This document shows, in pieces, positions 26,241-35,899 of a stretch of DNA of 38,759 nucleotides (position 1 is its first letter; each line of letters begins with the position of its first letter). A program made the translations under genes and the position numbers. The notes under the pieces are model-generated. The model searched no databases. It saw only the letters and a list, made by a program, of their open reading frames with translations, and had not been told where the DNA came from. The stretch is from Candidatus Dormiibacterota bacterium (lineage in GTDB: Bacteria > Chloroflexota > Dormibacteria > CF-121): NCBI GenBank assembly GCA_035544955.1, contig DASZZN010000027.1, positions 1-38,759 of the forward strand, written 5' to 3'.

Positions 26241-26465
26241 AATTGATCAGCTTGAGCTGGCTTGTTGGAGCGAGTGGCTTCACGACCAAACGGTGGCCCC
26301 AACGAGTTTGAAGTTACAAGGGCTGATTTCCTCGTCGCCAGGGTCGCTATGCGGCGTCCGACATGGCGGTGGGAGGCGGCGGTCCCCAAGGGCCTCTGGC
26401 CGTGGATTATCTTCGAGTTTCACGCGGCATGTAACCTTCTGCTCCTGAAGAGCCCCTTTCCAGTA

Positions 26466-26942
26466 GTGGAGGCGCCAACCGCGGACGAGCGCACTGACAC
26501 GGTCGAGGCGCTCTATCGCACGCATGGGGATCGAATTTGGCGGGCGGTAGCTGTTTATGCCCAGGATCCTGATGTCGCGAGCGATGCGGTGGCGGAAGCA
26601 TTCGCGCAGTTAATGGTTCGGGGCGAAGCTGTTCGGTCGCCGGCTGCCTGGGTGTGGCGGACCGCCTTTCGGATCGCTGCTGGGATGCTCCAGGAGCGCA
26701 CACGATCGGTAGCCCTCGTGGGAACAGAATCCTACACGACACGTGATTCGGCCGGCGAATTGGTGGCGTCTCTGGCCAAGCTGCCGCCGAAGCAGCGTGC
26801 CGCCTTGATTCTCTTCTACTACGGCGACTACCCAATCGGTCAGATTGCCGAGATGTTGCGCTCAAACGCCCTGTCTGTTCGGGTCAACCTGAGCCGCGGA
26901 CGGCGGCGGCTGCGGCGAATCCTGGAGGAAGAGCATGCCTGA
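26466..26942 (+). CDS. ECF-type RNA polymerase sigma factor
   Basis: This protein of about 158 residues has sigma region 2 (about 13-75: VEALYRTHGDRIWRAVAVYAQDPDVASDAVAEAFAQL and SPAAWVWRTAFRIAAG) and region 4 (about 100-150: LPPKQRAALILFYYGDYPIGQIAEMLRSNALSVRVNLSRGRRRLRRIL). It would direct transcription of a small regulon, possibly its own operon. The frame is open upstream to 26262 (ATG at 26349) without family-like residues, so the GTG at 26466 was chosen. Its end overlaps the next gene by 8 nt. TGTAAC at 26430-26435 resembles an ECF -35, but no matching -10 was found. Confidence 0.88.
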   Translation: MEAPTADERTDTVEALYRTHGDRIWRAVAVYAQDPDVASDAVAEAFAQLMVRGEAVRSPAAWVWRTAFRIAAGMLQERTRSVALVGTESYTTRDSAGELVASLAKLPPKQRAALILFYYGDYPIGQIAEMLRSNALSVRVNLSRGRRRLRRILEEEHA

Positions 26943-28368
26943 GCTGAAGCAGCGGTTCGAGGAATTGGAGAGGCTGCCCGCGCCCGACCTCCAGCGGCGC
27001 ATCCAGATCCGGATTCAGCGCCTTCAGCAGCCGGACAACCCCCTGTCCGTTGCGGAACAGGCATGGCGCCGCCGCGAGCGCCTATGGCCTTCGCAGGTGT
27101 TGGCCGCGGCGGCGGTAATCGTCTTTGCCCTCGTCCTGGGGGTTGCACTGCTGCATGCGCGCAGTCGGGCGCCGGTCCAAGTCCATCCAAGTCCTTCCGT
27201 CGCCCCCCAGCCCCTTCCGAGTCCTTCGATCACCGGCACCTATCCGCGCGGCTTTTATCCGGGTTCGCTGCACATGGTGTCGCCAAACGTCGGTTGGAAC
27301 GGCGTTGCTTACGTTGAGACGAGCGATGCCGGACTTCATTGGAGGGTCATTTCATCGCCGCCGGCAATCTCGAATCAGATCAAAGGTGGGCTGGGTAACT
27401 TTGCGCTGGACACGACGCACGCTTGGATGACCGGGGCGACCAGCCACGGGCTCGTCGTGACCTCGACCGTCGACGGCGGTCATACCTGGAGCGCGAGCGC
27501 TCCGCTGCCGGCCCTCATCCAGATCAGGGGAGGAAATGCAGCGGTGCAATTGGACTTTATCGACGCGCAGCACGGCTGGCTGGTCGTAGATACCGCGGGT
27601 AGCGCTTCTCCAAATTCGCGGGCCATCTTTGCCACGAGTGACGGCGGCCGGCGCTGGAGCGAAATCGCCAGGGCCTCCGAATCCGATGGTTCCGTCCTTG
27701 GTCGGCTTGCCGCCGGCTGTACGCCGAGCGGAATAACGTTCATCAGCGCCGATTACGGGTGGTTGACCTACGACTGTACTCGCGCCAGCGGGGTTCTGTC
27801 CCCACACTCCGGTCCTGTCGCAGCGGTTACGCGCGACGGCGGTCGGAGCTGGGAGGCGGTCCCCCTCCCCTCATACCCGTCAGGGTCCGGGTACTTTTCG
27901 GCGAGTGCGCCGATCTTTACGCTGAACAACGGAATCCTTCCCGTGTTTTTCGGCGGTATCGGGCCGTCCTGGACTGGGATTTATAGAACCACCGACTCGG
28001 GCCGAACCTGGAGCTTGAGTCAGCTGCCGTTCTGGCCAGCCGCGCCCCCCGACTTCATCGACGCGCGCACGGGATGGGCCGTCAAGGAAACGGGGCCGAT
28101 CCCGCCAAGCCCGGGTGCCGACTGCTACGTCGTCACGTGTGCTTTCGTTGCCGAGTTGTACGGCACGACAGACGGTGGCGCCACGTGGAAGCTTCTCAGC
28201 CGACTGGTCCCCGCGGCCGGTGCCGTGGCGTTCTTCGATGCCAAAGTTGGCTACTACGCCTGGTCCGAAAATCCGTTCCACGAGGGATCGCCAGGCGGCA
28301 TTATGAAGACAACAGACGGCGGCCGCAGCTGGTCGGTCGTACGGCCGGTCCTGGAGGGTCAAGGGTGA
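26935..28368 (+). CDS. Membrane-anchored Asp-box (BNR/Ycf48-like) propeller protein, candidate anti-sigma sensor
   Basis: This 477-residue protein has a charged cytoplasmic segment of about 50 residues (LKQRFEELERLPAPDLQRRIQIRIQRL), one membrane helix (about 53-73, SQVLAAAAVIVFALVLGVALL), a Pro/Ser linker and an extracytoplasmic beta-propeller. Seven Asp-box motifs are visible, among them TSDAGLHWR, TVDGGHTWS, TSDGGRRWS, TRDGGRSWE, TTDSGRTWS, TTDGGATWK and TTDGGRSWS. It overlaps the sigma gene by 8 nt and the next lipoprotein gene by 4 nt. The position and topology are those of a transmembrane anti-sigma factor, but the cytoplasmic part has no anti-sigma motif I recognise. Confidence 0.85.
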   Translation: MPELKQRFEELERLPAPDLQRRIQIRIQRLQQPDNPLSVAEQAWRRRERLWPSQVLAAAAVIVFALVLGVALLHARSRAPVQVHPSPSVAPQPLPSPSITGTYPRGFYPGSLHMVSPNVGWNGVAYVETSDAGLHWRVISSPPAISNQIKGGLGNFALDTTHAWMTGATSHGLVVTSTVDGGHTWSASAPLPALIQIRGGNAAVQLDFIDAQHGWLVVDTAGSASPNSRAIFATSDGGRRWSEIARASESDGSVLGRLAAGCTPSGITFISADYGWLTYDCTRASGVLSPHSGPVAAVTRDGGRSWEAVPLPSYPSGSGYFSASAPIFTLNNGILPVFFGGIGPSWTGIYRTTDSGRTWSLSQLPFWPAAPPDFIDARTGWAVKETGPIPPSPGADCYVVTCAFVAELYGTTDGGATWKLLSRLVPAAGAVAFFDAKVGYYAWSENPFHEGSPGGIMKTTDGGRSWSVVRPVLEGQG

Positions 28369-29267
28369 AACGGATGGCACGCCTCGGCATTCTCATGATT
28401 GCGCCGCTTTGGTTGGCCGCCTGCGGCGGGACGGCCGCCCGTCCCACGGTTGCCGCGTCCCGGGCCGCCTCTGCCACCGCGGCCGCGAGCGGCCCTTATA
28501 TCTATTGGGCGAACTGGGGCGCCGGACGTGGGACCACGATCGGCCGCGCCAATCTCGACGGTACGGCGGTGAACCCGAGTTTTATCACCGGCGCCAGCAC
28601 CCCCTGCGATGTTGCGATTAACCAGTCGTATATCTACTGGGGAAACAATGGTACGAATTCGATTGGGCGCGCCAACCTCGATGGCACGGCGGTAAACCAA
28701 ACGTTTATCAGCAGTACCGGCTCGCCGTGTCCTCTCACCATTGACCGCTCTCATATCTATTGGGGGAATTGGCAGGCTCCCGTCTCCATTGGCCGAGCCA
28801 ATCTGGACGGCACTGGGGTGAATGAGAATTTCATCACCGGCATCACTGAACCCGCAGATGTCGTGGTAAACGAGACCTACATCTATTGGACCAGCCACGA
28901 TTCCTTGTCGATCGGGCGCGCGAACCTCGATGGAAGGGGCGTCAACCAGACATTCATCAAGACGGAAGCAACTCCAGATGGGATGGCAATTGACGGCTCG
29001 CACATGTATTGGACTGGCATCGACCGGGGCACAATCGGGCGGGCCAATCTTGACGGGACCGGGTTGAACCAGACCTTCATCACCGGCGCGAATGGGCCGA
29101 CTGGGATTAAAGTCGATACCGACCATATTTACTGGTCCCAGGCGGGTCCACCAAACGGACCCGCGGGGACCACCATCGGGCGAGCGAACATTGACGGCAC
29201 CGGGGTAAACCAGCGCTTCATCACCCGGGCATTTATTCCAGCTGGCCTTGCCATTCAACAACCCTAA
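28365..29267 (+). CDS. YWTD-type six-bladed beta-propeller lipoprotein
   Basis: This 300-residue protein starts at a GTG that overlaps the upstream stop (GTGA) and has a lipoprotein signal ending LAAC (C20). The mature protein is six repeats of about 40 residues with the pattern Y/H-IYW...IGRANLDGT.VN..FI, resembling LDL-receptor class B (YWTD) repeats, so a single closed six-bladed propeller is expected outside the membrane. It has no catalytic motif. As third gene of the sigma/propeller operon it may be a ligand-binding partner or a target of the sigma factor. Confidence 0.88.
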   Translation: MKRMARLGILMIAPLWLAACGGTAARPTVAASRAASATAAASGPYIYWANWGAGRGTTIGRANLDGTAVNPSFITGASTPCDVAINQSYIYWGNNGTNSIGRANLDGTAVNQTFISSTGSPCPLTIDRSHIYWGNWQAPVSIGRANLDGTGVNENFITGITEPADVVVNETYIYWTSHDSLSIGRANLDGRGVNQTFIKTEATPDGMAIDGSHMYWTGIDRGTIGRANLDGTGLNQTFITGANGPTGIKVDTDHIYWSQAGPPNGPAGTTIGRANIDGTGVNQRFITRAFIPAGLAIQQP

Positions 29268-29342
29268 TCTGTGCTGGCTGAGCAGGGGCGAGCCTGACGG
29301 CTAGTCGTTACAGCCCGCGAACCCTAAGTTTTCATCTAAGCC

Positions 29343-29373
29343 GCTGGAGGCAATACGCGCTTGCCTCCCCAGC
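29343..29373. repeat. Hairpin just upstream of the tRNA-Gly remnant
   Basis: GCTGG-AGGCAA, 7-nt loop TACGCGC, TTGCCT-CC-CCAGC: 11 pairs with a 2-nt bulge. A similar hairpin (CTGG..GAGGA / TCCTC.CCAG) lies before the remnant at 30347. Confidence 0.75.
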
Positions 29374-29383
29374 TTGCGTCCTC

Positions 29384-29410
29384 CGCGAGTTCGAGACTCG
29401 TCTCCCCGCT
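29384..29410 (+). repeat. tRNA-Gly 3'-end remnant 1
   Basis: It matches the last 26 nt of tRNA-Gly (26215-26240) with a single inserted C in the acceptor strand. The match continues past the tRNA end: the next 18 nt here agree with those after the tRNA at 16 of 18 positions (AATTG.T.AGCTTGAGCT). Confidence 0.9.
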
Positions 29411-29681
29411 AATTGTTGAGCTTGAGCTTGGTGGAGCTCCAACCACCGCCCTTCATGCCTTGACAAGTCTCGTCTGGGTTTAGCGATTGATAGCGAGTTT
29501 TTCAGGATCTATAAGTGTGGCCGAACCAGGTCCGGAACCTAAGCAGCAGGCAGTTCATCTAGTGACATCGTCGACAATTTGCTGATTCACCACAGCGCCT
29601 AGATCAGGAGCACAGTCGGCTTTTTTCATCATGGGGACTTAACATGATGGTTCGAGTAATCCAGACTCGAGGAGAGACAAC

Positions 29682-30145
29682 GTGAGCCCAAAGAAGGCCG
29701 CCCAGAAGTCGGTCCGCCGCACCACTGACAGGGCGTCCCAGTTATTGACGGCCGAGGAACGAGCCGCGATGAGGGAGACCCTCAACGAGCGGAGGCGCGC
29801 TGGCTCGGGTGAGGCGGACGGGGAAAGCGACGTACTCGGAAGATCGCCGAGATGCCGGAAGCGGATCGCGTCATGGCTAAGCGGCTCCACGCCATCATCA
29901 AAGCCAGCGCGCCTACTCTAGCTCCGAGAACCTGGTACGGGATGCCCGCGTACGCCAAGGACGGCAAGGTTGTCTGCTTCTTCCAAAGCGGGCAGAAGTT
30001 CAAAGCAAGATACGCGACCTTCGGTTTCCAACAGGCTGCAAATCTCGACGAGGGTGACATTTGGCCAACCTCCTTTGCCCTGAAAAGATTGACCCCCGCC
30101 GTCGAGAAAATGATCGGCAAGCTTGTCAAGACAGCGACGAGCTGA
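29682..30145 (+). pseudogene. DUF1801 (YdhG-like) gene with a frameshift
   Basis: Two frames together give one recognisable DUF1801-type protein. The first runs from GTG 29682 (Shine-Dalgarno GAGGAGA at 29669-29675) through LLTAEERAAMRETLNERRRA to ADGESDVL. The second continues as [48 protein letters not shown], to 30145. The change occurs near 29838, where one base appears missing between CTCG and GAAGATC. Members of this family are small, poorly understood proteins. This copy is either inactivated or carries a sequencing or assembly error. Confidence 0.82.
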
Positions 30146-30231
30146 GGCCGCGCATCACGCCGAGCGTGCCGAGGGAGGCTTGGCTGGGATGAAACCATCC
30201 GCTGACCGTCCGCTCAATTCGGCACGGACAG

Positions 30232-30288
30232 TATCCGCTTTCCATTCCAGGTTGTGCCCTGCGTGGGTTCGAGTCCACTCGCACCCGC
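30232..30288 (+). repeat. Degenerate tRNA-like 3' fragment of another tRNA type
   Basis: The T-loop-like GGGTTCGAGTCC is followed by CGCACCCGCA, an acceptor end different from tRNA-Gly(GCC). The upstream part (ATCCGCTTTCCATTCCAGG) parallels that before remnant 2. The T stem lacks one base, so it is not a working tRNA. Confidence 0.55.
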
Positions 30289-30346
30289 AGCAAACCTAGG
30301 CCGCCTGGGCGAGGATCCGCTTTCCTCTCCAGCTTGCGTCCTTCAC

Positions 30347-30369
30347 GAGTCCGAGACTCGTCTCCCGCT
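30347..30369 (+). repeat. tRNA-Gly 3'-end remnant 2
   Basis: The 23 nt match 26218-26240 with one change (T to C in the T-loop). It is preceded by the hairpin CTGG..GAGGA/TCCTC.CCAG and by AGCTTGCGTCCT, both shared with remnant 1. Confidence 0.9.
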
Positions 30370-30466
30370 GATTTCCCGCTCGAGTGCGGCCGGCTACCAA
30401 TCCACGATCCTCGGGTCGGGCGCGGAGGTAGGGACAGGCCGGTCGCTGGCCCGTCCCCTGGAATCG

Positions 30467-31636
30467 CTACGGACGCACGGCGACGCCGTGGACCGCGCAT
30501 CCTGAGCAATTGGCCGGATTGAAAACCGAAGCTGGTGCCAGATCGAGGTAGCTAACCGTTCTTTGATTGACATCGATGACCGCGATCTTGCCCGAGGCGC
30601 GAAGCGAAACAAAGGCGGTGTTCCCTTTCACGCCGATGGCATCCGGCTGGTCGTTGGCGGGACCCGGCGTTGGGTCGAGAACTAGGATGTCGGCGACGCT
30701 TACTTGTTCACCCCGAAGGTCGATCAGCACCAGCTCGTCACCGCGCGGAACGGTCCCGAAGCCCAGCTTTTCGTTAGGGCTCATGTTGAAGCTATGCCAG
30801 TCGGGCGCCGGAAGCCTACCGGCGTCTGCGAGCGTTTCGGTGTCGGTGTCGAGCCGATAGATATGGCCCCCAGTGCTTCCGCCGGCCGCAATCGTCACAG
30901 TCTTGCCGTTCTTCGACTTGATCATGCCGCACGCGATGAAGCCGTCAGTATCGAAGGTGCGCACAACGCTCATGCTGCCCACGTCGACGATCGCCAGGCC
31001 GCTGGGAAGCAACGAGACGTAGGCATGCTTGCCGTCGTCGCGATACACGCTGCAAATCGGAGCCTTCCCCAGCGACGCGAACGAGAGGGAACCGACGACA
31101 TCCCAGCGTTGGGTGGCCAGGTTCGCGGCGACCTTGAAGAGGGTTTTGGAGCCAATCTGCGCCACGAGCAGGACCGAACCGTCCGGTGAGGATTTCGCCT
31201 GGTGGGTCCCTACTTGTCCCAGGTGCAGGACATCGACGAGCTGTCGGCTGTCAGCCTGGACGATGTCGAGGTCGCCGTTGCCCATCCCGGAGATGTAGGC
31301 AAAGGCGCCCTGGGGCGAGAAGGTCGTGATGTGCGGACCGGTCCCGGCCGGAAGGTTGATCGTCTCCATTGGCCCTCGGCCGTCCTGGCCGTGAAGGATA
31401 TCGATGCGACTGGTTGCCTGGAGTGTGATCCAGACCTCGCCGCTCTCCGATAGGACAGTTGGTGTTTGGGCTGGCCGGACTACGGTCGCCGCCTGCTTCA
31501 CTGACGCCGGCCCCTCCGCCGGCGTAGTCGCCGACACTGGAGTCCCACACGCGGCTAGGCTGGCGAGCAAGGTCAGGCTAACAAGCGGCCAAAAGGTCGA
31601 GCGACATGATCGCGGAAGCGGCATCATGATCCTCAT
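30467..31636 (-). CDS. YVTN-type beta-propeller lipoprotein
   Basis: This 389-residue protein has a lipoprotein signal ending SLAAC (C30). The mature part has repeats of the YVTN/cytochrome-d1-like propeller type: [95 protein letters not shown] and [26 protein letters not shown]. It ends with [14 protein letters not shown], which is not a canonical CxxCH heme site. The ATG at 31636 has a strong GGAGG upstream; the longer open frame was rejected. It is divergent from the LuxR-NHL regulator, which could control it. Confidence 0.86.
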
Positions 31637-31718
31637 GTCTTTCCTCCGTCGGGGTTTTCCGGCTCGCCGCCACCGTAGGGGGAAAACGGCCGCCACGCAT
31701 CCGCAGAAATACAGGCTC

Positions 31719-31752
31719 CGGTACCCATTTCGGTACCCAATTCCCATCGGGA
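31719..31752. promoter_or_regulatory. Tandem repeat and inverted repeat between the divergent propeller genes
   Basis: Two adjacent 12-nt units (CGGTACCCATTT and CGGTACCCAATT, 31719-31742), each with a GGTACC palindrome, are followed by TCCC-ATC-GGGA (31742-31752). They lie in the 131-nt space between the YVTN lipoprotein and the LuxR-NHL gene and are candidates for a regulator-binding region. Confidence 0.55.
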
Positions 31753-31767
31753 CCTGAGGAGAACGGA

Positions 31768-33183
31768 GTGCCGGCCAGGCAGGAGTCCACGCTGACACCT
31801 CGCGAGCGGGAGGTCGCCGCTCTCGTAGCCGACGGGCTGACGAACCGCCAGATAGCCAGGCGCCTCTTCATTTCGGAGCGGACGGCCGAGCACCACGTTG
31901 AGCAGATCCGAAGCAAGCTCGGCTTCCATTCCCGGGCTCAGGTTGCCGCATGGGTCGTGGGATCGCCGGCGCCTCTCGCGCCCGCCCCAACGGCCGCGGC
32001 GTCTGTGCCAGTCGATGCCTCGTCGAGCCGAGAGTCCACTGCAACTGGAAAGGCCCCTCGATCGCGCTGGGTGACCGCCGTCCCGGTCGCCATGTTGGTG
32101 GCTGCCGGCGCTGCGGCCTTCGCCTTCTGGGCGTCGCGGCAGGGAGGGTCAGCCATGACCATCGTCACGGTGGCCGGCACCGGTCGATCGACGTTCTCGG
32201 CGGACGGCCGGCCCGCAACAGCGACGGATCTCGTCCGCCCGGCGGCGATGGCGGTTGCTCCGAACGGCACGCTCTACTTCATCGACGGCAATCGAGTCAG
32301 GAAGATCACTGGACGAGACACGGTGCAGACCATTGCGGGCACGGGTGATTCCGGGGATGGCGGTGATGGGGGGCCAGCCCTGTCGGCTCAACTCAACTCG
32401 CCAAAAGCGCTGGCCATCGATCCCGACGGAGATGTTTTCATCGCGGATACCGGGAACAATCGGGTTCGTGAGGTTGATCCCAAGGGGAAAATCTTCACGG
32501 TAGCCGGCACAGGCGATGCCGGCTATTCCGGTGATGGCGAACGAGCGGTCCGGGCTCGCCTGAACGCCCCGACGGGACTGGCCGTCGGCTTTAGTGGCAG
32601 CGTATTTATCGCCGACACGCTGAATCATCGTGTGCGAATGGTCACGAGCGAGGGCGTGATCAGCACGGTGGCGGGAACCGGAACCGCCGCGTATACGTTC
32701 GAAGGTGGTCCCGCCACCGCGGCACCCCTCGACTTACCTGAGGCACTTGCCTTCGACAGCGAAGGGTATCTCTACATCGAGGACGTTGGCAACGATCGGG
32801 TGCGGAAGGTCGATCTCGCCGGCGAGATCGTCACCGTCGCCGGAACTGGTGTTCCGGGCTCTTCCGGCGACGGTCAATCGGCTTCAGCCGCTGAGCTGAG
32901 TCTGACGAGCCAAGGGTTGGGAAGTGGTCAGGCGCTGGCCGTTGATAGCCAGGGCAACCTTTATATAGCGGATGCCGGCAACGAGAGGATTCGCGAGGTC
33001 GATCTTCGCGGCACAATTTCGAGCCTGGCGGGGACCGGTCGCGCGGGGTACTCGGCGGACGGTAGCGCGCCGCTGCAGGCAACGCTTAACGATCCTCTCA
33101 GTGTGGCGGTTGACGCCCAGGGAGTCGTGTACATCGCCGACAGCGAGAACAATTTGATCCGGGAGATTGCTCCCAAACGCTAG
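31768..33183 (+). CDS. LuxR-type HTH / transmembrane / NHL six-bladed propeller regulator
   Basis: This 471-residue protein has a GerE/LuxR DNA-binding domain at the N-terminus (about 8-64: [43 protein letters not shown]). A Pro/Ala/Ser linker, one membrane helix (about 102-122, [21 protein letters not shown]) and six NHL repeats (about 133-471, pattern AGTG..GYSGDG...A.L..P..LAVD..G..YIAD..N.RVR.V) follow. The layout suggests a one-component membrane regulator that senses outside and binds DNA inside, in the manner of ToxR/CadC but with different domains. The start is GTG with TGAGGAGA 6 nt upstream. The stop overlaps the convergent neighbour's stop (CTAG). Confidence 0.9.
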
Positions 33184-33950
33184 GGTGACTGATCCACGGG
33201 CGTCTCGAAGGGCTGGCCTGCAGCGGTGACATGAAATGCAAGGAAGGTAGACCGGCCGCTGGCTAGGTTGAAAATCTGTGTCGCCGTCCCGGGCAGCTCG
33301 CTTGCCCCGTGGTCGGCGGCAAGCGTGACCGCCGATTTCCCGGCTGCCCGTACCCGGATCGATCCTTCCAGGACAAAGAGGGCCACGATGCCGCCGTATT
33401 TTGCCGCGCCCGTTCGTCCGCCCGGCTCCAGAGCGACCCATCGTAGGGTTTCGATGTACGGACTGGGTGAGAACGTGGTCAGAGGAAAGTCCAGCGTTTC
33501 GTACGGAACAATGGCGCTCGAGGAGACGAGCGGTGACGACCGAGCGCTCGTCGGCCACAGCGCCACGAAGTACCAGTGGTTCTCCGCCAGTCCCGGGTTG
33601 GTATGTGTGTGCGCCAGCGGACCGAGAAAGAAACCCTGCGCCGGTCCAATGTTTACGGTCGGGCCATCCTGGATGGCGAGCACCTGGCTGCCCTCCGCCT
33701 GAAAGATGAGACCTGGCACGTGCTTGAGCGAGGGAAAGAAGCTGCCAGCCGGCTGATGGAATTCGATTGCGCGGATGAACAAGTTGCCGGTCGGCAAGGC
33801 CGGTAGCGGACCGCCAGCAAGGGGTACAGTCTTGGATCCCTGGGCCTTCGCATCCTGGCTCATCGAGGTCGAGGCGGCCGCGCTGCATGCCGTGGATAGC
33901 AGGGCAAGGACGCAAGCGATCCAAAACCGCCGCCCCGGGCACCCTCCCAT
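33180..33950 (-). CDS. Cupin-like lipoprotein
   Basis: This 256-residue protein has the lipoprotein signal [14 protein letters not shown] (C22). The mature part shows two cupin-like beta regions: [26 protein letters not shown], with a His-rich strand that could hold a metal, and [36 protein letters not shown]. The cupin reading is from pattern only. The ATG at 33950 was chosen for the signal peptide; the upstream open frame to 34220 is Arg/Pro-rich and not protein-like. It is convergent with the NHL regulator, and the two stop codons share CTAG. Confidence 0.75.
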
Positions 33951-34066
33951 CCTCGAAGGGTAGGCTAAACCGGTCCCAGACCTGGCCTGCCCTGGGAGAC
34001 TTCGATGTCTGCGAGCCGGTATCCGAAGCGAACCTGGCCCGTCTGAGTGGGCATTGCGCGGGAAAC

Positions 34067-34079
34067 CTCGTCTCCCGCT
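34067..34079 (+). repeat. Short tRNA-Gly 3'-end match (possible remnant 3)
   Basis: 13 nt are identical to the last 13 nt of tRNA-Gly(GCC). The T-arm before it is not preserved, so it could be an eroded remnant or chance. Confidence 0.4.
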
Positions 34080-34394
34080 CTCTCGTGCATAACTCTTCGA
34101 ACGCCGCCGCGGCGGTGGAGGTAAACGTGGGGATGCCTCCATCCCACGGGCCATCCCGGTGCTGGAGGGCGAGTAACCGTGCGCCCCAGCCCTCAGTGGC
34201 AACGCGGGCACGCCTGGCACAGCCGGGCTGGCCTACGCCACATCTGCCATCTGGTAGCTGAACCGAATTGGTAGGGCGTCGGTGGAACGCCTCCTGGCGT
34301 AGACGCTGGTCTCTTTGGCGCAGTCTGTTTGGCGGGCCTCGTTGAGCGCAGCGGTAGGCAGGCACCGCCCGAGTTCCTCTCCGGCGTATCCGCA

Positions 34395-34423
34395 TTGACG
34401 GAGGGCCGCCCGCCCGTTAGTCT
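34395..34423 (+). promoter_or_regulatory. Promoter of the secreted Asp-box gene
   Basis: TTGACG (34395-34400), a 17-nt spacer and TAGTCT (34418-34423) precede the GTG at 34433 by 9 nt. The expected +1 falls at or within a few bases of the start codon. Confidence 0.65.
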
Positions 34424-34432
34424 TCTTCGCGG

Positions 34433-35899
34433 GTGAGGGGAACAACGACGAGGTCGCTGACGCTCGTGACAGCGAGCGTGATCATGATGGCTTCCCTGGC
34501 GCCAGGGGCAGGCATCGCTGCTTTGGCCAGCGACCAGGGGAGCGTGCGCTTCAGCCTCCAGCACCGGGTCGGTTTCGTCTCCGGCGACGACTGGGAACCG
34601 GCCATCGCAGCCGACCGGTTTGGCCATGAGTACGTCCTGTACAAGCACTACGACGTCCCGGGCGGCGGCACCTGCCCCGCCTGCGATGTCCACCTCCTTG
34701 TACAGCGCAGCAGCAATGGTGGGCGTAGCTGGACCGTGCCCAGGGCCATTGCCCCAGTAGCCGTTGACGGTGGGCAGTACGATCCGCAGATCGCGGTCGA
34801 CCCCGTGGACGGCCGCACCGTGTGGGCCTCCTTCCTGCAGAACGCCAACTCCGTGATCGGCGTGGTCGAATCCACCGACTTCGGCGAGACCTGGTCCCCC
34901 GTTCGGATCGTAAGTGATGGCCTCATCGGGCTGGACAAGGACTCGCTCGTGGTCCGCGGCCGGACCGTGGCGGTGGCGTACGACGACGGCTTCAGCACCT
35001 ACGCGTCAATCTCGCAAGACGGCGGTCGGCAGTGGACTACCCGCCTGGTTACGCCCGGCAGCAACCGCTTCAACCTGCCGTTGTCGGCAGGCGGCGGAAT
35101 CGATTCCAAGGGCAATCTGTATTTTGCCTGGAACAGCTTTGACGCAGCCCATTCGGCTAACGGGGACGGACCGGTTACGCTCTGGCTCACCCGCTCCAGC
35201 GACGAGGGAAAAACCTGGCAACGAGTCGTGATCGCTGTCAGTGGCGCTCCCCCGCCCTGCAGTGGTTGCGGCTTCGCCTATCTAAGTGCGCAGATGACCA
35301 TGAGGATCGGGCCCGACGACGCAGTCTATCTCCTCTGGAATGGAACGGTCGACCGCACGGACTTTGCACCCGAGCGCATCTTTTTCAGCCGCTCGGTTGA
35401 TCACGGCCGAACCTTCTCATCGCGCCGCGAGGTGTCCACTGCTCCGGCTGGGGCAGAACATGCTTTTCCGGCGATCACCGTCGGCGATCGAGCGGGCGAC
35501 GTACGGTTGGCCTGGATGGACACGCCGCAGGTGGCTGCGGACGGAACCGGCACCTGGAACGTTCGTTACCGGGCCACTGAAGATAATGGGCAGACGCTGG
35601 GGCCGGAGGTACGCATCTCCCGATTCGTGCCTGGCTATCCTTATCTCACGCCAGCCGGGTTCACGTCGCCATACGGCGACTACTTTCAGATGGCGATTGA
35701 TGCAAACGACGCCACCGTGCTGGCGTTTGGCGAAGGCCCGAACTACGCGGGGCCGGGCAACATCTGGGTCTCGCATGAGCTTCAGACCGGCGAACCGGAC
35801 ATAGCCGCCGGGGGCCCGGATGAAAGCTCCGCGGCGACCTGGCAGCGCGCGCTCCACGGAACTACTGAGCGGACGCATGCAGGTGTCGGCGACCGCTAG
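34433..35899 (+). CDS. Secreted Asp-box (BNR/sialidase-fold) protein
   Basis: This 488-residue protein has a signal peptide (1-33, LTLVTASVIMMASLAPGAGIAALAS). Its mature part is a sialidase-fold propeller with repeated Asp boxes: SSNGGRSWT, STDFGETWS, SQDGGRQWT, SSDEGKTWQ, SVDHGRTFS and a weak TEDNGQTLG. Two cysteine pairs (CPAC, CSGC) may form disulfides. I do not see enough of the sialidase arginine triad to call an enzyme; exo-alpha-sialidase annotation would be over-reach. The last ~30 residues look unstructured. The stop lies 12 nt before the distal tRNA-Gly copy. Confidence 0.85.
   Translation: MRGTTTRSLTLVTASVIMMASLAPGAGIAALASDQGSVRFSLQHRVGFVSGDDWEPAIAADRFGHEYVLYKHYDVPGGGTCPACDVHLLVQRSSNGGRSWTVPRAIAPVAVDGGQYDPQIAVDPVDGRTVWASFLQNANSVIGVVESTDFGETWSPVRIVSDGLIGLDKDSLVVRGRTVAVAYDDGFSTYASISQDGGRQWTTRLVTPGSNRFNLPLSAGGGIDSKGNLYFAWNSFDAAHSANGDGPVTLWLTRSSDEGKTWQRVVIAVSGAPPPCSGCGFAYLSAQMTMRIGPDDAVYLLWNGTVDRTDFAPERIFFSRSVDHGRTFSSRREVSTAPAGAEHAFPAITVGDRAGDVRLAWMDTPQVAADGTGTWNVRYRATEDNGQTLGPEVRISRFVPGYPYLTPAGFTSPYGDYFQMAIDANDATVLAFGEGPNYAGPGNIWVSHELQTGEPDIAAGGPDESSAATWQRALHGTTERTHAGVGDR

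Follow-up and report, generated by a model that had tools for sequence, protein, structure and literature searches.

A predicted single-span regulator with a GerE DNA-binding domain and an NHL propeller, and its putative bicupin lipoprotein neighbour, in Candidatus Dormiibacterota

RESULTS AND DISCUSSION

A putative propeller regulator and its probable lipoprotein partner

The window analysed here is a stretch of 38,759 nucleotides from a Candidatus Dormiibacterota genome (contig DASZZN010000027.1). It contains a gene for a protein in which a GerE/LuxR-type helix–turn–helix (HTH), one transmembrane (TM) helix and an NHL-repeat propeller follow one another in a single chain, and this gene meets that of a putative bicupin lipoprotein at its 3′ end (Table 1). 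The GerE-TM-NHL chain is intact, its predicted topology and domain order are conserved, a cupin gene co-occurs exclusively with its ectodomain and adjoins it, and a conserved DNA site lies upstream. With a probability of roughly two in three, we suggest that the protein is a bitopic one-component regulator, comprising a cytoplasmic GerE domain, one membrane helix and an outer NHL propeller working with the bicupin lipoprotein, and that it acts on tandem GGTACC-type sites.

The evidence for the partner comes from gene content in 110 genomes of the class. A homologue of the cupin protein (E <= 1e-15) occurs in 17 of them, and these are exactly the 17 that encode a closely related NHL ectodomain; none of the other 93 has one. 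The cupin gene adjoins the ectodomain gene in all 17 genomes, and only one extra copy, a weak one, was found (G025, contig C26, E=3e-16). The next-best NHL proteins (E ~1e-53 and weaker) belong to genomes without a cupin homologue. If kinship is ignored, the chance of such perfect co-occurrence is 1/C(110,17)=2.6e-20; the true figure is larger, but the distribution is patchy. The window's cupin protein shares 35–43% identity with 12 aligned homologues, all encoded at the equivalent place. Two homologues, at L079 (E=3e-9) and L080, match Cupin_2 above the Pfam cut-off, and the predicted fold of the window protein resembles bicupins such as MncA and oxalate decarboxylase, with a high root-mean-square deviation (rmsd).

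This suggests that the lipoprotein is probably the sensing partner of the regulator beside it. The first-pass annotation of this DNA had proposed that a signal passes directly from propeller to HTH without a kinase or response regulator. The absence of receiver and kinase domains agrees with this, but a propeller acting alone looks incomplete, because the bicupin lipoprotein is a genomically obligate neighbour (17/17 genomes against 0/93) and solute-binding proteins are the neighbours or fusion partners of more distant relatives. A separate lipoprotein may thus supply the signal.

In locus L085 (genome G004, which belongs to the window's genus), the regulator and cupin genes both group with the copies of another family. 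This could reflect a cassette transferred as a unit, or a misbinned contig.

Table 1. Positions of the regulator gene, its parts and the adjacent features in the window
Feature	Position	Strand	Basis or remark
GerE-TM-NHL transmembrane regulator gene	31768..33183	+	GTG start, 471 aa; 11 full-length homologues
GAGGAG, likely ribosome-binding sequence	31756..31761	+	6 nt ahead of GTG, read from sequence
GerE/LuxR (NarL-type) HTH, aa 8-62	31789..31953	+	Pfam PF00196 E=2.2e-18
Linker, aa 72-104, predicted disordered, Arg/Lys-rich directly ahead of membrane helix	31981..32079	+	Predicted local distance difference test score (pLDDT) <50; Lys/Arg (K/R) bias
Predicted single transmembrane helix, aa ~105-125, N-terminus inside	32080..32142	+	AlphaFold2 and hydropathy, 18/18 homologues
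NHL propeller ectodomain of six blades, aa ~130-469, with strand 130-136 probably closing the ring	32155..33174	+	Pfam, AlphaFold2, PDB matches
Putative bicupin lipoprotein gene, proposed extracytoplasmic partner	33180..33950	-	Tail-to-tail with regulator, stop codons overlap
Predicted operator TACAGG-N6-TACCCA-N6-TACCCA, tandem half-sites 12 bp apart	31710..31739	.	Core CGGTACCCATTTCGGTACCC at 31719-31738
Divergent propeller lipoprotein gene, weak Lactonase/YVTN-type similarity	30467..31636	-	Pfam Lactonase E=2.6e-4, NCBIfam TIGR03866 E=3.8e-10, both below cut-off

Domain architecture and predicted topology

Pfam, the AlphaFold2 model and the homologues agree that a GerE-type HTH, one membrane helix and an NHL propeller form a single chain, as had been read from the sequence at first. 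The N-terminal domain scores 66 bits against GerE (curated cut-off 23.5), which places it in the GerE/LuxR-type HTH superfamily, and it matches the NarL C-domain (1je8, E=1.2e-10). The AlphaFold2 model, built from an 18-sequence alignment, has a mean pLDDT of 87 and places the GerE helices at residues 11–21, 26–33, 37–51 and 56–65. In the Pfam scan of the regulator, no receiver family was found, with only about seven residues lying ahead of GerE; nor did any kinase family match, and no winged-HTH (OmpR/PhoB-type) family scored above its cut-off.

The NHL repeats match TEN_NHL (E=2.1e-38, 132.7 bits) and NHL (E=8e-29, 98.7 bits), both above the Pfam cut-off. Among PDB structures, the modelled propeller resembles a bacterial Teneurin-like protein (9ifo, Z 45.4, 48% identity) and, over 242 residues with an rmsd of 1.8, the PknD sensor (1rwi, Z 31.8). 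In the model, the strand at residues 130–136 is followed by five four-stranded blades in succession and then by a last set of three strands. The propeller is thus probably a six-bladed ring shut by the N-terminal strand, with one blade split; of the six complete NHL repeats first described, the number of blades holds but the completeness of every one probably does not.

A hydrophobic 19-mer (mean hydropathy 2.06–2.82) occurs at the equivalent position in all 18 aligned homologues, its core being residues 102–120 in the window protein. Lysine and arginine number 2–7 in the 15 residues ahead of this segment and 0–3 in the 15 after it. This inside-positive bias is seen in 17 of the 18 proteins, the exception being L074 (two before, three after), and because of the excess ahead of the helix the HTH is predicted to lie inside. 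The data support a topology with a cytoplasmic HTH, a single span and the propeller outside. Full-length copies in one open frame are present in 11 genomes of the same class, from three families, at 52–54% identity, and the same order of parts is kept in more distant clades (L003/L065, L072–L074/L064, L132 and L134). Attempts to refute the two assumptions behind the architecture, that the hydrophobic stretch is a true membrane helix and that no frame error joins two genes, both failed: the helix is kept throughout the alignment, and the eleven open frames exclude the error. A phylum-wide search with the regulator protein scored four candidates per genome, so no claim of absence outside the class is made.

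Predicted operator

In an alignment of upstream regions, one block stands out from poorly conserved flanks; it has the form GTAGAA-TACCGGGATCGGTACCGGAATTCGGTACCGGTTT or similar in the relatives and CAGGCTCCGGTACCCATTTCGGTACCCAATT in the window. A site was defined as GGTACC-N6/7-GGTACC with at most one mismatch, within 110 bases upstream. By this definition it is present in 14 of 15 GerE-TM-NHL loci (11 of the 12 in the window's group and all three of a clade about 40% identical), against an expectation of 0.002 per locus and 0.03 in all; the site occurs 4 times in 214,064 bases of background, and shuffled sequences gave a mean of 0.006 loci. L134, another locus in the second clade, also carries the site. 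The DNA site suspected at 31719–31752 is therefore real as a conserved motif. Its TACC-type half-sites resemble the NarL heptamer TACYYMT.

The only exact copy in the window's own genome is that at 31719–31738. A pattern search of this genome for a regulon revealed no further convincing site, weaker matches being no commoner than those of a reversed-pattern control. Two other matches were left uncounted: a one-mismatch site in G021, which falls within a predicted gene and has no regulator of this kind nearby, and one in G039 with two mismatches, which precedes a separate 796-aa gene with a GerE-type HTH.

The loci examined that have a cyclase in place of the HTH, described below, lack the site: no GGTACC occurs within 700 bases around the cyclase genes of L088 and L089, and no paired site was found anywhere in the cyclase loci L088, L089 and L096. 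Conservation of the site where the HTH is present, and its absence from these loci, suggest that the HTH probably binds beside its own gene and, in L086, also before the cupin gene.

Upstream of the genes at L077–L087, a TATGCT or TATCCT box is followed by about 14–18 nt to the GTG, without an evident Shine–Dalgarno sequence. Most relatives, but not the window, may thus have a short-leader start.

Probable replacement of the output domain

Proteins from genus g17 combine the same ectodomain and cupin neighbour with a different N-terminal part, a class III adenylate/guanylate cyclase (PF00211, E=5.4e-8 in L088; L061 and L062 are of the same sequence type). The cupin gene is retained in L088 and L089 and also in L096, which was grouped with the cyclase loci and whose N-terminal part lies off the contig; L060 (G080), whose contig begins inside the propeller, was likewise grouped with the cyclase copies. 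In the ectodomain tree, the cyclase group nests among GerE copies, the outlying clades are all GerE, and the joining branch has support of 85/98. The cupin tree broadly agrees with it. Since the cyclase group falls among GerE copies and all outlying clades are GerE, the simplest reading of the ectodomain tree, likely but not proven, is that a cyclase replaced the HTH. Because the cupin gene is present with either output, the partner follows the sensor and not the output.

Proposed mechanism and alternatives

In the mechanism that we favour, the cupin protein, perhaps after binding a small molecule or metal, would dock on the propeller or release it. The docking state would alter pairing of the regulator within the membrane, and this pairing would decide whether the GerE domains occupy the tandem GGTACC-type intergenic sites. 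The direct targets would be the regulator's own gene and the divergent gene for an extracytoplasmic protein. We infer the cupin–propeller contact, the ligand, the dimer switching and activation rather than repression; the last of these may not hold in the window. Only 16 bp separate the window site from the ribosome-binding sequence downstream of it, and in most relatives the site lies further upstream, ahead of a TATGCT box. Since the window site abuts the ribosome-binding region, it may repress the promoter rather than activate it, and the sign of regulation may differ here.

That difference in position is one of several points that weigh against this mechanism. The co-occurrence count ignores kinship among genomes; the cupin gene is convergent to that of the regulator and does not share an operon with it; and Pfam gives no domain in the window's own cupin protein. 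The topology comes from prediction, the inside orientation being read from the K/R bias. One GerE locus of the window's group, L080, is without the site, and none was found near the clades linked to solute-binding proteins around L090, L132 and L095.

Rather unlikely, but the strongest of the alternatives, is that the same transmembrane regulator senses a ligand directly through its propeller and that the cupin lipoprotein is merely a regulated effector. Cupin genes can indeed be targets, since a second GGTACC pair in L086 (+2194 from the regulator) shortly precedes the cupin gene and is followed by further GGTAC-type half-sites, and genes on the regulator's other flank often encode further exported cupins. 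However, a site ahead of the cupin gene is present in this one locus only, and the cyclase versions, which have neither the DNA-binding domain nor the site, retain a cupin gene.

Regulated proteolysis, in which a signal-triggered cleavage would free the GerE domain from the membrane into the cytoplasm, appears improbable. The long, low-confidence and poorly conserved linker between GerE and the membrane helix would suit it, but no protease gene is found among the conserved neighbours, and for CadC the full-length membrane protein is itself reported to bind DNA (PMC5936718). More doubtful still is a separate adhesive or enzymatic role of the propeller, fused to a membrane-tethered HTH by accident. 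Many other proteins encoded by these genomes do have NHL propellers, but the conservation of the architecture in three families, the probable cyclase swap with the partner kept and the conserved site beside the gene all speak against this. Nothing was found in favour of an artefact, whether two genes fused by a frame error or a hydrophobic segment mistaken for a membrane helix, and the 11 independent full-length copies and the helix in 18 homologues make it barely credible.

Relatives linked to solute-binding proteins

In more distant relatives, the gene directly after the GerE-TM-NHL gene encodes a solute-binding lipoprotein: SBP_bac_5 in L091 (13 nt away) and L132 (4-nt overlap), and Peripla_BP_6 in L092 and L134 (4-nt overlap). 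The window's own genome also encodes, at L095 (contig C5, 6093–9119), one chain of about 1019 aa that joins GerE, a membrane helix, a Vgb-type propeller and SBP_bac_5; its counterparts (L038 and L039), one-chain proteins of about 1020 aa that are 52–54% identical to it, are in two metagenome-assembled genomes labelled Chloroflexi. This fusion lends Rosetta-stone-type support to the suggestion that the propeller of such a regulator acts with a binding protein. A general modular receptor can be envisaged tentatively, with chances a little short of even, in which a lipid-anchored binding protein (bicupin, SBP_bac_5 or Peripla_BP_6) would report its ligand state to the propeller of a single-span protein with an exchangeable output, either a GerE HTH on its own promoter or a class III cyclase, without a kinase or response regulator.

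The same genome encodes a further GerE protein (L124, contig C21, 6761–7900) that is fused to a Bmp/PnrA-type binding domain (E=2.2e-47) and has no evident membrane helix or signal peptide.

Comparison with known systems

Membrane-integrated one-component regulators make up about 3% of one-component systems (PMC5936718). The regulator described here shares with the ToxR-like proteins (ToxR, CadC, TcpP and PsaE) a bitopic topology with the N-terminus inside, here predicted, and a C-terminal sensor. Some of these also have a membrane partner (ToxS, LysP), and CadC/LysP and ToxR/ToxS are the closest worked-out examples of a partner-dependent regulator; CadC is reported to dimerize through its outer domain and senses via LysP (PMC5936718). 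It differs from them in that its HTH is of the GerE/NarL type and not winged, its sensor is an NHL propeller and not a ToxR or CadC sensor fold, and its neighbour is an exported cupin lipoprotein.

A LuxR-type HTH within a membrane protein is also found in the DadR-type regulators of Eggerthella, which control transcription (PMC9734109). In these the HTH is C-terminal, behind 10–12 helices, and no propeller has been described, whereas here an N-terminal HTH precedes one helix and a propeller. PknD of Mycobacterium tuberculosis has a six-bladed propeller outside a membrane signalling protein (PMC3322341), but its output is a Ser/Thr kinase and not a DNA-binding domain. The GerE domain is shared with NarL/FixJ response regulators; here there is no receiver and no cognate kinase, and the protein is membrane-anchored. 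The Reg_prop/Y_Y_Y sensors of Bacteroidetes, some of which end in GerE, likewise combine a propeller outside with a DNA-binding output inside. Their propeller belongs to another family and their HTH is C-terminal.

A full-text literature search returned no description of a single chain that combines GerE, one helix and NHL. The first-pass statement that this domain pairing is not known as characterized therefore stands for the combination, which is apparently undescribed, but not for transmembrane LuxR-type regulators as such (DadR; PMC9734109); propeller-bearing membrane receptors are known too. Little is understood of how a signal passes across a single helix to a DNA-binding domain. This family supplies matched parts, namely a sensor, an exclusive partner, an operator and an apparent natural replacement of the output with the partner kept, so that which part carries the signal becomes directly testable. 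These parts could serve as modular extracellular biosensors, and the family suggests that NHL propellers may act as docking platforms in bacterial signalling.

Other genes in the window

The divergent propeller lipoprotein gene likely shares the regulated intergenic region with the regulator; in most relatives, a cupin protein is encoded at its position. The region from 26262 to 35899 forms a gene island of low GC content at third codon positions (0.68–0.76, against 0.87–0.89 in the flanking M23 and UvrA-like genes). It holds five different propeller proteins: a TM-BNR protein, a YWTD lipoprotein, the lactonase-like lipoprotein, the GerE-TM-NHL regulator and a BNR protein. At 26262–28368, a gene for a sigma-70 region 4 protein, similar to those of extracytoplasmic function (ECF) sigma factors, overlaps by 8 nt a gene for a protein with one membrane helix and an outer BNR/Ycf48-type propeller. 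The latter is perhaps an anti-sigma factor with a propeller sensor, and would then be a second propeller-based transmembrane regulator in the window.
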